Assembly (NCBI GenBank): GCA_013314735.1
Contig: JABUFD010000002.1
Location: 186,001-250,000, forward strand
Length of the DNA stretch: 64,000 nucleotides
DNA from: Anaerolineae bacterium
Lineage (GTDB): Bacteria; Chloroflexota; Anaerolineae; Anaerolineales; Anaerolineaceae
Reading direction: 5' to 3'
This document shows positions 10,454-21,042 of this stretch, in pieces (the first letter of the stretch is position 1; every line of letters starts with the position of its first letter). A program made the translations under genes and the position numbers. The notes under the pieces are model-generated. The model was given only the letters and a program-made list of their open reading frames with translations. It was not told the DNA's origin and made no database searches.

Positions 10454-10476
10454 TTCACTATCCAATTGGCCAGATG

Positions 10477-10485
10477 TGCTAGACT
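10477..10485 (+). promoter_or_regulatory. extended -10 promoter of small RNA element R1
   Basis: TGCTAGACT (TG at 10477-10478, -10 hexamer TAGACT) is one of six GTG(C/T)TANA(C/A)T boxes in the non-coding stretches of the phage. R1 would start near 10491. No convincing -35 is present, as expected for an extended -10. Confidence 0.5.
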
Positions 10486-10490
10486 ATAGG

Positions 10491-10594
10491 TACTTGCGAA
10501 GTGTGCCGGTCAGAACCGGCAGGAGTGAGAGAAATCTCGCTCCGCCTCCGCCCAGCGCTCAGAAGCCCCGCCGCCCATGAGCGCTGGGCCTATT
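10491..10594 (+). ncRNA. R1: three-hairpin phage RNA element
   Basis: After the conserved leader ACTTGCGAAG come three adjacent hairpins. H1 is GCCGGT-CAGA-ACCGGC (10505-10520). H2 is a 9-bp stem closed by a GAAA tetraloop (10522-10543). H3 is a 12-bp stem (10550-10561 with 10578-10589) with a 16-nt loop rich in C. R2 (19151-19255) has the same three hairpins with different stem sequences but an almost identical H3 loop (GCCCCGCCGC), so base pairing rather than sequence is conserved. It lies between the tail tube gene and a structured leader. Function unknown. Confidence 0.6.
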
Positions 10595-10655
10595 AATGGC
10601 CAACGGGGTAAAAACGGCGAATTTGGGGATTTATAGCGTACTCTATGCAATATGA

Positions 10656-10693: not shown

Positions 10694-10702
10694 TGCTACA
10701 CT
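10694..10702 (+). promoter_or_regulatory. extended -10 promoter of leader L1
   Basis: TGCTACACT is a match to the phage extended -10 family. Transcription would begin close to 10708, just before arm A of the structured leader. TTCAAA at 10672 is a weak -35 with 19-nt spacing. Confidence 0.5.
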
Positions 10703-10707
10703 AGGAA

Positions 10708-10869
10708 TGTAGCAAGCAACTACAACCGACGCGCATATTCTGTTTAAGCGCCATGATCCATAGAAACTGTGGGAGAAGTCCCGCGTATTTCACAACCGTG
10801 TCGGTAGTTGCTTGCTCCACATGGCGGAAGTACGCGGGATTTTTTCATAACCGTAAAGGAGCAAGCAAA
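10708..10869 (+). promoter_or_regulatory. L1: structured, strand-exchanging leader (candidate cis-regulatory RNA)
   Basis: Arm A (10711-10723 plus 10727-10730) is complementary to arm B (10800-10816). B also pairs perfectly over 11 nt (10808-10818) with arm C, GGAGCAAGCAA at 10858-10868, which contains the Shine-Dalgarno of the following gene. Two further pairs are E (CGCCATG, 10749) with E' (CATGGCG, 10820), and D (10779-10790) with D' (10828-10839). D' ends at a run of six T, like a terminator. The pairs occur in the order A-E-D-B-E'-D'-C, so most are mutually exclusive or pseudoknotted. Leader L2 keeps every pair with different sequence. Confidence 0.65.
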
Positions 10870-11169
10870 ATGTCAGAAAAGATTGAATTTGTGGTAGCGG
10901 AAGAAGCCGAGGCTGAGGCGGATAAGATTGCCAGGGACGCGGCGGAAGGACACAAGGTGCCGTTGTGGGTATTGGAGATGCTGCAGGAGCAGTTTGAGAA
11001 CCGGTTGGAGGAGCGGTGCCCGGAGGAATTTGAGACGGTGCAATTACTGATCCTGCTGACGGAGGCGATAACGCAGCTGCGGATGGCGGGGGCGATGGAT
11101 GAGATTGTGGCGGCGTGTATTGGGCAGGAGTTGTTCAATGTGATGGCGAAGGTGCCACAGTATGAATAG
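10870..11169 (+). CDS. small helical phage protein, paralogue of 19479-19760
   Basis: A 99-residue acidic, helix-rich protein without Cys motifs beyond two single cysteines. It shares KVPLW-LE-L, LILL-EA-T-LR, a late C-GQE and -N--M with the protein at 19479, so the two are clear paralogues. Its ATG directly follows leader arm C (GGAG at 10858). A longer in-frame reading from 10753 would translate the structured leader and is unlikely. It interrupts the usual tube-to-chaperone gene order, so it looks like an inserted cassette. I recognise no family. Confidence 0.65.
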   Translation: MSEKIEFVVAEEAEAEADKIARDAAEGHKVPLWVLEMLQEQFENRLEERCPEEFETVQLLILLTEAITQLRMAGAMDEIVAACIGQELFNVMAKVPQYE

Positions 11170-11194: not shown

Positions 11195-11203
11195 TGATAT
11201 AGC

Positions 11204-11218
11204 GTACTGAGTACGCGA
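11204..11218 (+). promoter_or_regulatory. GTAC-N3-GTAC motif, copy 3
   Basis: GTACTGAGTACGCGA is a palindrome (GCGTAC-TGA-GTACGC) that aligns with the motifs at 161, 10656 and 19262. Here it lies after, not before, an extended -10, so a different role such as roadblock operator is possible. Confidence 0.35.
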
Positions 11219-11295: not shown

Positions 11296-11313
11296 TAAAC
11301 TCTCCATAGACAA

Positions 11314-11349
11314 CCCCGGTTTGCAGGAAAACTGCGAGCCGGGGTTTTT
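11314..11349 (+). terminator. intrinsic terminator
   Basis: A 13-bp stem (CCCCGGTTTGCAG with CTGCGAGCCGGGG, two G-T pairs), a 5-nt loop and five T form a strong rho-independent terminator. It would end transcripts from the tail tube gene, the cassette gene and R3 before the tail chaperone genes. Those would then need a promoter or anti-termination. Confidence 0.85.
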
Positions 11350-19000: not shown

Positions 19001-19074
19001 GCCCCGGTGAGCTAATAGGAAAGCTGCATTCTTCGTAAGTATGTCATATGTCGGTTCGAATCCGGCCCGGGGCG
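19001..19074 (+). tRNA. phage-encoded tRNA-Thr (anticodon CGU)
   Basis: A full cloverleaf. Acceptor is GCCCCGG/CCGGGGC with G discriminator, D arm AGCT-AATAGGAA-AGCT, anticodon arm CATTC-TTCGTAA-GTATG, T arm GTCGG-TTCGAAT-CCGGC. The anticodon CGT (19034-19036) reads ACG. One U-U mismatch is present in the anticodon stem, and CCA is not encoded. Its anticodon arm is complementary over 15 nt to RNA element R2 just downstream. Confidence 0.88.
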
Positions 19075-19136
19075 CTGCCCTATTAATAAATGATCCTTTT
19101 AAGGGTTGAGGGGGGGTTCAAGAATTTGACGAGATG

Positions 19137-19145
19137 TGCTATACT
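19137..19145 (+). promoter_or_regulatory. extended -10 promoter of element R2
   Basis: TGCTATACT with TTCAAG 17 nt upstream of the hexamer (19117-19122). It is the best full promoter of the six-member family. R2 would start at about 19151. Confidence 0.55.
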
Positions 19146-19150
19146 ATAGG

Positions 19151-19255
19151 CACTTACGAAGAATGCCGGTTAGAACCGGTAGGGTTGAGATAAACCTCGT
19201 CCCGTCCCGCTCAGCGCTCAGACGCCCCGCCGCGAATGGGCGCTGCGCCTTTTAA
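19151..19255 (+). ncRNA. R2: three-hairpin phage RNA element, complementary to the tRNA anticodon arm
   Basis: The layout is that of R1. A CTTACGAAG box is followed by H1 CCGGT-TAGA-ACCGG, H2 GGGTTGAG with CTCGTCCC (19182-19203), and H3 CAGCGCTCA with TGGGCGCTG (19212-19245). The 16-nt H3 loop is identical to that of R1 at 13 positions. The stems differ from R1 but still pair. Positions 19152-19166 are the exact reverse complement of tRNA-Thr positions 19026-19040 (whole anticodon loop plus stem). It could act in trans on the tRNA, or pair with it in a joint transcript. Confidence 0.6.
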
Positions 19256-19261
19256 GGGGCA

Positions 19262-19299: not shown

Positions 19300-19308
19300 T
19301 GCTATACT
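19300..19308 (+). promoter_or_regulatory. extended -10 promoter of leader L2
   Basis: TGCTATACT; transcription would start near 19314, immediately before arm A of leader L2. Confidence 0.5.
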
Positions 19309-19313
19309 GTGGG

Positions 19314-19478
19314 CGTAGACACGACTCCAAATAGCAGGTTTTTTGTTTAAACCATGCTCATAACGAATATAATTGTGGGCGAAGTCCTGCATTGGTTGAA
19401 ACTGCTATGAGAGTCGTGTCTCCGGCATGGTAAAACCAGTGCAGGATTTTGTCATATCATTCAAAGGAGACACGACAA
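19314..19478 (+). promoter_or_regulatory. L2: structured, strand-exchanging leader (paralogue of L1)
   Basis: Arm A (AGACACGACTC at 19317, ATAGCAG at 19331) pairs with arm B (CTGCTAT at 19402, GAGTCGTGTCT at 19411). Arm B also pairs over 11 nt (19413-19423) with arm C, GGAGACACGAC at 19466-19476, the ribosome site of the next gene. E (ACCATGC, 19351) pairs with E' (GCATGGT, 19425). D (19385-19397) pairs with D' (19434-19446, then TTTT). The order and spacing match L1 although the arm sequences differ, which is covariation between paralogues. The likely role is control of the downstream gene by alternative folding. Confidence 0.65.
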
Positions 19479-19760
19479 ATGAACGAGACAGAAAAAGCAG
19501 AAGTTGGGAAGGCGAAGCTGGCGGCGGATGAGGCGCAGGGGCGGAAGGTGCCGCTGTGGCTGCTGGAGGCGTTGCTGACGAAGTACAAGGGCCACCTGGA
19601 GGTGACGTGCCCGGATCAGGACCGGGCGATTGAGGAGCTGATCTTGATTGTGGAGGCGGTGACGGTGCTGCGGCGGGGGGAGGCGCTGGATCAGTTCACG
19701 GCGGTGTGCCTGGGGCAGGAGATTGTGAACCTGTGCTGGAATATGGCACACATGGAGTAG
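19479..19760 (+). CDS. small helical phage protein, paralogue of 10870-11169
   Basis: 93 residues, helix-rich and charged. Shares KVPLW-LE-L, LIL--EA-T-LR, ALDQF-A-C-GQE and -N---M with the protein at 10870. Its ATG follows leader arm C. The longer in-frame reading from 19449 would include leader sequence and is unlikely. A strong terminator follows at 19774, so promoter, leader, gene and terminator form a closed unit near the right prophage end, where accessory (moron) genes are often carried. Function unknown. Confidence 0.65.
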   Translation: MNETEKAEVGKAKLAADEAQGRKVPLWLLEALLTKYKGHLEVTCPDQDRAIEELILIVEAVTVLRRGEALDQFTAVCLGQEIVNLCWNMAHME

Positions 19761-19892: not shown

Positions 19893-20828
19893 CTAGAGGC
19901 GCCAGTTATCGACGGGGGAGGCGAGGCGGTGGGCATTTTCGATGTCAACTTCGGAGAGATGGAGGTAACGGCGAACCATATCGAGGGTAGAGTGGCCGAG
20001 GAGTCGCTGGAGGGTGTAGACATTGCCGCCGTTGCGAAGAAACTCGATGGCAAAGGTGTGGCGGAAGCGGTGGGGATGGGTGTTGGGGACATCAGCGCGG
20101 GTGCCGAGGTTGTCGAGCAGGTGGCGGATGGAATCACGATCCATGGGGTTGTTTTTGATGGAGAGGAAAAGGGGTTCGGAATTGTGGGGTTTGTCGCGGG
20201 TGGAAAGGTAGCGGTGGATCTGGTAGGCAGTACGGCGGGAGATGAAGACGGTGCGGGGACGGGATTTTTTGCCAGAACGGTAGGCATGCACCTGAACGGC
20301 GCAGTTATCAAAGAGATCGACATCACCGACGGTGAGGCGGGCAGCTTCGGAGACACGGAGGCCGGTATCGAGGAGGAGTTTGACAAGGGCAATATCACGG
20401 GCGGCGGTGGCGCGTTTCATCTGGAAGGATTTACGGCCATGGGAAACGGCGGGGCGGGTGTATTCGGCGGCTTTGAGGAGGGCCTGGACATCTTCCTGGG
20501 TGAAGGGGATGACTTCGGTGGGGGGTTCGGCAGGGCATTTGATTTTGGCGTTGGGTAGTTCTTTGAGGCCGAGTTCGAGTTGCGCCCAGGAGAAGAAGGA
20601 TCGGAAGGATTTCCAATAGGCGCGGAGGGTATTCTGGGAACGGCCCCTGGCGCTGACGTCGGCCATGAAAAGGACGAGGTCCTGGTATTGGATGGCAGCG
20701 ACGGGGCGATCGCCGATGGCTTTGAGGACGCGTTTCATGCAGCCAGCGTAGTATTTGACGGTGTGGGGGGAGAAGCCGTTGGATGCCAGGTAGAGGGAAT
20801 AGGTAGGAATGGCGTTGGAAAATAACAT
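19893..20828 (-). CDS. int: phage tyrosine integrase
   Basis: 311 residues with a SAM-like N-terminal core-binding domain (SLYLASNGFSPHTVKYYAGCMKRV). The catalytic domain carries the tyrosine recombinase residues: Arg158 in LLDTGLRVSEAARL, His253 and Arg256 in HPHRFRHTFA, His279 in LLGHSTLD and Tyr288 in VRRYLHLSE. The ATG at 20828 (minus) is chosen because GAAAGGA precedes it; upstream in-frame sequence would translate the tRNA. It is encoded against the structural genes and sits next to tRNA-Pro, the typical right end of a prophage. Confidence 0.92.
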   Translation of the reverse strand: MLFSNAIPTYSLYLASNGFSPHTVKYYAGCMKRVLKAIGDRPVAAIQYQDLVLFMADVSARGRSQNTLRAYWKSFRSFFSWAQLELGLKELPNAKIKCPAEPPTEVIPFTQEDVQALLKAAEYTRPAVSHGRKSFQMKRATAARDIALVKLLLDTGLRVSEAARLTVGDVDLFDNCAVQVHAYRSGKKSRPRTVFISRRTAYQIHRYLSTRDKPHNSEPLFLSIKNNPMDRDSIRHLLDNLGTRADVPNTHPHRFRHTFAIEFLRNGGNVYTLQRLLGHSTLDMVRRYLHLSEVDIENAHRLASPVDNWRL

Positions 20829-20866
20829 GATTTTGGGGTCCTTTCTTGGGGTTTGGCTTAAACGTG

Positions 20867-20933
20867 GTAAGCGGACTGCGGTTGTTTTTGTAACCTCGAA
20901 CATGAGGGAAAAACTGAACCGCAGACCGCTTAC
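20867..20933. repeat. 17-bp inverted repeat between integrase gene and tRNA-Pro
   Basis: GTAAGCGGACTGCGGTT (20867-20883) is the reverse complement of the arm at 20917-20933 except for one central base; the arms are 33 bp apart. The position between int and tRNA suggests integrase arm sites, an operator for int, or the end signal of the tRNA transcript. No T tract fits a terminator. Confidence 0.5.
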
Positions 20934-20966
20934 CTGGTCAATTATTTGGATGTAACGGGTTTCTGG

Positions 20967-20990
20967 TCGGGGCGAGAAGATTCGAACTTC
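20967..20990. other. probable prophage attachment site (3' part of tRNA-Pro)
   Basis: Integrases of this type usually recombine within the 3' half of a tRNA and leave the tRNA intact. The int gene begins 138 bp from this tRNA end, and phage genes stop here. The matching direct repeat should lie at the left prophage end, outside the window. This is inference from layout; the core was not observed twice. Confidence 0.45.
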
Positions 20991-21042
20991 CGACCTCTTG
21001 CACCCCATGCAAGCGCGCTAAACCGGACTGCGCCACGCCCCG
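20967..21042 (-). tRNA. tRNA-Pro (anticodon GGG)
   Basis: Minus-strand cloverleaf: acceptor CGGGGCG/CGCCCCG with A discriminator, anticodon arm CTTGC-ATGGGGT-GCAAG (anticodon GGG), T arm GGAAG-TTCGAAT-CTTCT with a T-T mismatch where the arm meets the variable loop. It is complete, and its 3' end faces the integrase gene. Confidence 0.9.

Follow-up and report, generated by a model that had tools for sequence, protein, structure and literature searches.

Three copies of a predicted leader RNA with alternative helices at the ribosome site in one Anaerolineae prophage

The window analyzed in this study (G000:C11:186001-250000; 64,000 nucleotides) contains most of one prophage, and two paralogous small genes within it are preceded by leaders, L1 (10708-10869) and L2 (19314-19478), in which one strand (arm B) may pair either with an upstream strand (arm A) or with a downstream strand (arm C) that includes the Shine-Dalgarno (SD) sequence. 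A third copy, L3 (G000:C11:183090-183285), belongs to the same prophage, starts 2.9 kb beyond the left end of the window, and precedes a third member of the gene family. The predicted helices, their covariation, and their placement both at the ribosome site and at the predicted 5' end of the RNA are evident from the sequences of the three copies, and we consider it fairly probable that such leaders act in cis as bistable 5' regions of short prophage transcription units.

As proposed in an earlier note on this DNA, the leader is that of a phage: prophage genes surround L1 and L2 (terminase, portal, and capsid genes as well as a tRNA-Thr gene inside the window; a primase-like gene, SSB, a topoisomerase-like gene, and endolysin to the left of it), and every copy precedes a paralogous gene. 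L3 was recovered by DNA similarity to L1 in a search of the same genome, with structure unused (73% identity across the match). L1 as the query detected L3 but not L2, while L2 as the query detected neither L1 nor L3; since DNA searches failed to link it with the others, L2 was regarded as the most diverged copy. Identity was 68-79% between the leaders vs 68-72% between the genes and 47-58% in the 100 nt upstream. The transcription units appeared to be short: terminator-like sites were located behind the L1 and L2 genes and ~0.7 kb past the L3 gene (L002:2686-2713), the matches of the terminator- and promoter-like scans being just modestly above those in shuffles.

The elements had the same order in 3/3 copies: promoter-like site, A, E, hairpin F, D, B, E', D', C, and start codon. 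Their positions at L1 and L2, together with the genes and sites behind them, were as follows.

10697..10702, plus strand: L1 promoter-like -10 TACACT with TG upstream (by eye, placed relative to the L2 and L3 boxes; absent from the scan list)
10711..10733, plus strand: L1 arm A (10711-10723 with B 10804-10816, 13 bp; 10728-10733 with 10797-10802)
10749..10755, plus strand: L1 arm E (7 bp with E')
10758..10772, plus strand: L1 hairpin F (10758-10763 with 10767-10772), immediately before D
10772..10791, plus strand: L1 arm D (20 bp with D', 4 of them G-U)
10797..10818, plus strand: L1 arm B, the putative switching strand (with A or C; 10808-10818 with C, 11 bp, perfect)
10820..10826, plus strand: L1 arm E', partner of E
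10827..10846, plus strand: L1 arm D', taking in the T6 run
10858..10868, plus strand: L1 arm C, holding the SD GGAG; itself a near-copy of the start of arm A
10870..11169, plus strand: P0001 (99 aa) behind L1, of a family found just as three paralogues
11312..11346, plus strand: terminator-like site behind P0001 (scan; stem of 15 pairs)
19303..19308, plus strand: L2 promoter-like -10 TATACT with TG upstream and TTTACG 18 nt before (scan, 9 of 12)
19317..19337, plus strand: L2 arm A (19317-19327 with 19411-19421, 11 bp; 19332-19337 with 19402-19407)
19351..19358, plus strand: L2 arm E (8 bp with E')
19358..19378, plus strand: L2 hairpin F (19358-19363 with 19373-19378)
19378..19397, plus strand: L2 arm D (20 bp with D')
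19402..19423, plus strand: L2 arm B (with A or C)
19424..19431, plus strand: L2 arm E', partner of E
19434..19453, plus strand: L2 arm D', with a broken T-run (TTTTGTC)
19466..19476, plus strand: L2 arm C, including the SD
19479..19760, plus strand: P0002 (93 aa) behind L2, 42% identical to P0001
19771..19807, plus strand: terminator-like site behind P0002 (scan; stem of 16 pairs)

A base-pair check located arms A, B, and C, D-D', and E-E' of L1 and L2 where the earlier note had placed them. L2 also kept the helices in the order that it had claimed: A-B with 11 bp, extended by another helix of 6-7 bp, B-C with 11 bp, D-D' with 20 bp, and E-E' with 8 bp. The position given for D-D' was correct, but its extent had been underestimated: the helix was 20 bp long in L1 and took in T6. 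The lengths in L1, L2, and L3 were 13, 11, and 13 bp for A-B (then a second A-B helix of 6-7 bp), 20, 20, and 16 bp for D-D', and 7, 8, and 7 bp for E-E', respectively, and B-C was 11 bp, with the SD inside, in 3/3 copies. Since A-B and B-C used common bases of B in every copy, they are alternative pairings that reach the SD and, as proposed, exclude each other. The -10-like boxes of L1, L2, and L3 were TACACT, TATACT, and TATAAT, respectively. The L3 site (TTGAAA, 17 nt, TATAAT) scored 11 of 12, and the scan with the L2 site found 9 such sites vs 6.0 in shuffles. The usual spacing between the -10 and the start puts the RNA start at the G of the shared GTAG (10709 in L1 and 19315 in L2), and arm A would, therefore, be the extreme 5' end; arm A was at the predicted 5' end in every copy.

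Chance pairing was assessed with 1000 dinucleotide shuffles per leader. The numbers of strong stems in L1, L2, and L3 (4, 3, and 4, respectively) were never equalled and are beyond chance, and the longest stem was equalled in 0, 0, and 4 of 1000 shuffles. The shared-arm score (one arm with an upstream and a downstream partner), equalled in 11, 30, and 36/1000 shuffles, was weak alone.

Covariation between the paralogues, another claim of the earlier note, was borne out by matched changes in L2 and L3, both in helix counts and in a MAFFT control. Two bases of arm A differed between L3 and L1, and matching changes were present in both B and C, the latter being the ribosome site. In the helix-by-helix count, all pairs were standard in L3 (58/58, with 14/106 arm sites changed) and in L2 (56/56, with 41/102 changed), and random placement of equally many changes was as good in 0/20000 cases for each copy; in the upper A-B helix, 0/6 pairs differed from L1 in L3 and 4/6 in L2. 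Because the arm ends of L2 and L3 had been set by pairing in this count, which favours structure, it was repeated on a structure-blind, sequence-only MAFFT alignment of the three leaders. For A-B, E-E', F, and D-D', 15/51 pairs were changed on both sides (shuffle mean, 6.3; 0/500 as high), the pair types were reached in 1/500 shuffles, and 89.3% of cells were paired vs 38-50% with partners slid by 1-3 columns. The corresponding values for B-C were 4/11 pairs (9/500 shuffles as high), 56/500 shuffles, and 84.8% vs 30-58%. F (60% paired) and E-E' (80%) were below the rest, which we attribute to the misalignment of F for L2 and L3 and of E-E' for L2. With just three sequences, all from one prophage, the covariation rests on few events, possibly fewer than the cells counted. 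The sole further homologue found, L3, was examined for a loss of A-B and B-C; both helices were kept, leaving the claim of alternative pairing intact. We regard this comparative evidence as decisive for the reality of the predicted helices.

Prefix folding gave A-B a probability of 0.99-1.00 from the synthesis of B until D' was nearly complete, and D-D' one of 0.98-1.00 once D' was complete; A-B and D-D' cannot be held together in this computation because it allows nested structures only. When the full length plus the gene start was folded (nested), L2 returned to A-B (0.92), and L1 and L3 did not. The fold energies, which are rough sums with a fixed pseudoknot penalty, were as follows for L1, L2, and L3, respectively: -57.5, -56.5, and -61.1 kcal/mol for D-D' with A-B (ribosome site open); -60.0, -58.6, and -66.0 kcal/mol for D-D' with B-C (closed); -50.3, -44.2, and -52.1 kcal/mol for A-B with E-E' and without D-D'; and -56.1, -55.4, and -62.0 kcal/mol for D-D' with neither A-B nor B-C. 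The closed fold was thus computed to be the most stable. The open fold, which shares its D-D' stem, came out 2.5, 2.1, and 4.9 kcal/mol higher, a small gap of the sort needed for a switch. Once D-D' stands, A-B adds almost nothing in energy (in L3, it is worse); because of this small gain, the open state may need a bound factor or be transient. Co-transcriptional strand exchange is, at the level of computation, in agreement with prefix folding.

From these data, we infer the existence of two states and which of them is on; D-D' termination, the trigger, and the function of the genes are proposed in the same conditional sense. The unit would consist of a promoter, the leader, one or a few small genes, and a terminator, its RNA beginning with arm A. 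B would be an anti-SD strand within the loop of the long D-D' stem: with B on A, arm C would be free and the gene translatable, and with B on C, the gene would be shut. Since A and B are synthesized before D' and C, A-B would be able to form first; D-D' and B-C, the most stable set in the computation, would form later, D-D' perhaps also halting some transcripts ahead of C, and E-E' and hairpin F probably supporting the competing fold. The balance may be set by the time since synthesis or by the binding of a metabolite or a protein (from the host or the phage, perhaps the encoded one), and candidate triggers are the encoded protein (self-regulation), a small ligand, an antisense RNA, and timing alone. 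The exchange of B is probably a real on/off switch of translation.

Transcription may instead be attenuated first, with D-D' as an intrinsic terminator, a pseudoknot of A-B and E-E' as the antiterminator, and B-C being relevant solely in read-through RNA. D-D' was present in 3/3 copies and enclosed T-runs (T6, T4, and T6 in L1, L2, and L3, respectively), as in the description of this stem as terminator-like in the earlier note, and it displaced A-B upon completion of D' in prefix folding, where only nested structures are allowed; because A-B does not use D, the exclusion would have to be geometric. Of the two marks of an attenuator, a GC-rich hairpin and an unpaired T-run, the hairpin was present. 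The T6 runs of L1 and L3, however, were paired inside the stem with purines at the start of D, and the run of L2 was interrupted by a G, an A-T pair in this stretch being replaced by C-G, which broke the run and kept the stem. Furthermore, the D-D' loop was ~35 nt long, and the terminator scan, in which loops of 3-8 were allowed, did not list D-D'. The T-runs described earlier therefore exist, but a role as a terminator is doubtful, and we consider attenuation of this kind unlikely. The switch is preferably regarded as translational, with B exchanged between A and C; a D-D' terminator is possible and less certain.

The nature of the molecule bears on two further explanations. When the D-D' register was derived from Watson-Crick runs, with G-U not assumed, the 11 interruptions in the three copies consisted of 10 G-U, 0 A-C, and 1 other, with G-U sites partly common to the copies. 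G-U here pairs in plus-strand RNA only, and the interruption pattern was as expected for plus-strand RNA. Other registers above the same threshold had mixed interruptions (1-7 each), including two A-C, both in L1, and the count of 16 G-U and 0 A-C cells across stems in the stem extension is built in because the stems were extended through G-U only. A DNA-level operator, with A, B, and C as a triplicated protein-binding site, D/D' and E/E' as additional sites, and only incidental RNA pairing, agrees with A and C being direct repeats, with B as their inverse, adjoining the promoter; however, each copy would require its own site sequence, and a DNA palindrome would suffer G-U and A-C alike, so that this explanation is scarcely credible. 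Folding z values vs shuffles were -4.2, -4.6, and -6.6 for the plus strand and -2.5, -5.8, and -4.0 for the minus strand (L1, L2, and L3, respectively), the minus strand of L2 surpassing its plus strand; values better than shuffles on the minus strand are expected of long inverted repeats. The heavily structured leader, with a D-D' of sufficient length for RNase III, may also act in trans or as a stable RNA (a regulatory RNA, an RNase III target, or another signal), with the downstream gene being incidental, and scans for minus-strand promoter-like sites located one weak (9-of-12) site within L2 and one within L3, but none within L1. This is improbable, since one of the arms takes in the gene's own SD in 3/3 copies and the leader was present at all three family genes found in this genome.

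Rfam 15 at gathering thresholds detected only a tRNA in the window. With E up to 5 over L001, L002, L003, and L132, the only match within the leaders was mir-1784 in L2 (26.3 bits vs a cut-off of 98). The leaders belong to no Rfam family (riboswitches, T-box, ribozymes, or leaders), in line with the earlier statement that no known riboswitch, T-box, or ribozyme class was recognized. A leader peptide conserved in 3/3 copies was not found: the frame from the ATG in arm E ran for 40 codons in L1, where it continued into the gene, for 18 in L2, and for 4 in L3, with no SD ahead, and GTG and TTG frames open into the gene were common to L1 and L3 and missing in L2. The products (93-102 aa, charged; four helices predicted, for P0001 only) did not resemble small hydrophobic type I toxins. 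Regarding type III toxin-antitoxin systems, there was no tandem array at L1 or L2 (L3 by eye) and no PADLOC match for the three proteins.

The three paralogous products were rich in charged residues, and a fourth family member was not found in this genome. They matched no family in Pfam and PHROG at E 0.001, nothing above the cut-off in NCBIfam, and no PADLOC family at E 1; the gene family thus offered no clue to a ligand. The P0001 model, built from the three sequences, had four helices (mean pLDDT 72.8); its fold search returned nothing below E 1, and no relatives were found among solved structures (best E 0.97). Homologues were not confirmed among 145 pattern stretches in genome_contigs, among 69 in viral_contigs, in 395 other genomes of the class (a sample of a larger group), or in the one other genome of the genus (69% complete). 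Phage records yielded two matches (E 0.5), which came from the same phage and were not credible, and nine stretches of viral_contigs with a degenerate KVPLW pattern were not family-like by eye. A protein profile detected the three genes only among the open frames of the collected loci (next best, E 0.77).

Within the collections searched, the leader RNA was confined to one prophage. The covariance search proposed in the earlier note recovered its own three copies and, in the genomes and loci covered, nothing outside the prophage. Its model, R1 (hairpin F, D-D', and the inner hairpin), detected only the three copies in this genome. A sample of 399 further genomes of the order, run with strict filters and with the scoring of 10 candidates in each, yielded no copy. 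The locus search took in all 84 related viral loci (L042-L125), L127-L131, and L132, but not L009-L041, and gave no credible match outside the three copies; the further matches were one in L113 (E 5) and two on the minus strand, at L3 (E 0.26) and at L1 (E 9.5). The leader was not seen in the related phage stretches (10 contigs by capsid and 74 by terminase, each up to ~21 kb). Core patterns, which are exact and would miss diverged copies, had 0 matches in viral_contigs and 0 in genome_contigs, and blastn with L3 as the sole query detected none in phages or plasmids. The D-D' pattern matched 24 stretches of viral_contigs, none of which showed the architecture on visual inspection. The window and 131 loci (3.16 Mb, both strands counted) were also scanned with a descriptor that required at least 8 bp of B-C with an SD and at least 10 bp of A-B, which gave 20 matches, 13 of them distinct. 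Three of these were the leaders, five fell within a single repeat-rich stretch of L087, and the remaining five (L074, L017, L091 twice, and L110) had only 8-9 bp of B-C and 10-11 bp of A-B.

Several other features of the prophage were observed. An integrase gene adjoins tRNA-Pro, the likely attachment site (window 19893-21042), and a second integrase gene is present on the opposite side of the prophage (L132:5157-6044). GCGTACTnAGTAC is located directly behind promoter-like GTGTTAAAATTGATATAG at two prophage sites, window 11202-11216 and L132:17383-17395 (promoter reading by eye), and forms the full palindrome GCGTACTGAGTACGC at 11202; these sites are candidate repressor operators. A second repeated element, X, occurs upstream of L1 (window 10475-10600) and of L2 (window 19135-19260; 80% identical), with the prophage-borne tRNA-Thr (CGT; window 19001-19075) directly upstream of the second copy. 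X contains promoter-like TGTGCTAnACTATAGG and several predicted stable hairpins, had no match in Rfam, was not found at L3, and its pattern had 0 matches in viral_contigs; it is possibly a separate small RNA. X elements as antisense partners of the leaders were unsupported, since no specific pairing stood out: X1 paired slightly best with its neighbour (L1, -71.6; L2, -65.1; L3, -69.4) and X2 worst (L2, -52.5 vs -62.4 and -63.7 with the other two leaders).

The platform of a translational riboswitch has a switching strand whose partner is either the leader core or the SD. The leader of Bacillus subtilis vmlR is reported to attenuate both transcription and translation. The prophage leader resembles these systems in that B would have the same two kinds of partner and a terminator is possible, and differs in that there is no recognized aptamer, ligand, or leader peptide conserved in all three copies. 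PMC6733600 describes, for the leaders of aapA3, hok, and the MS2 maturation gene, an anti-SD strand that masks the SD and competing helices that form in the order of synthesis, translation of the MS2 leader being open before the final fold forms. SD masking and competing helices in the order of synthesis would be shared by the prophage leader; unlike in these systems, no toxin-like peptide is present here (antisense was examined by promoter scans alone), competing strand A lies at the predicted 5' end, and the switch is enclosed by a stem of 16-20 bp. Downstream-peptide RNA, a leader of small unknown ORFs, and manA and wcaG, leaders of cyanophage genes (PMC2864571), likewise precede small unknown ORFs or phage genes, whereas the prophage leader matches no Rfam family. 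No published description of this leader RNA was found, as judged by titles and abstract openings. The kind of RNA, an SD-masking leader with competing helices, is thus already known, while the RNA itself appears to be new.

A more far-reaching reading is doubtful: a new class of phage RNA switch that senses a ligand or a protein, in which three helices that cross one another (order A-E-D-B-E'-D') would form a compact pseudoknotted core, the switching strand would also govern the ribosome site, and the switch, used three times in one prophage, would time one small protein family. If a ligand or the encoded protein sets the switch, it would represent a new sensing class. Phage gene control would gain a leader RNA outside the known families, and its three natural variants in one genome make the putative switch directly testable, each copy being a ready-made compensated mutant of the others.
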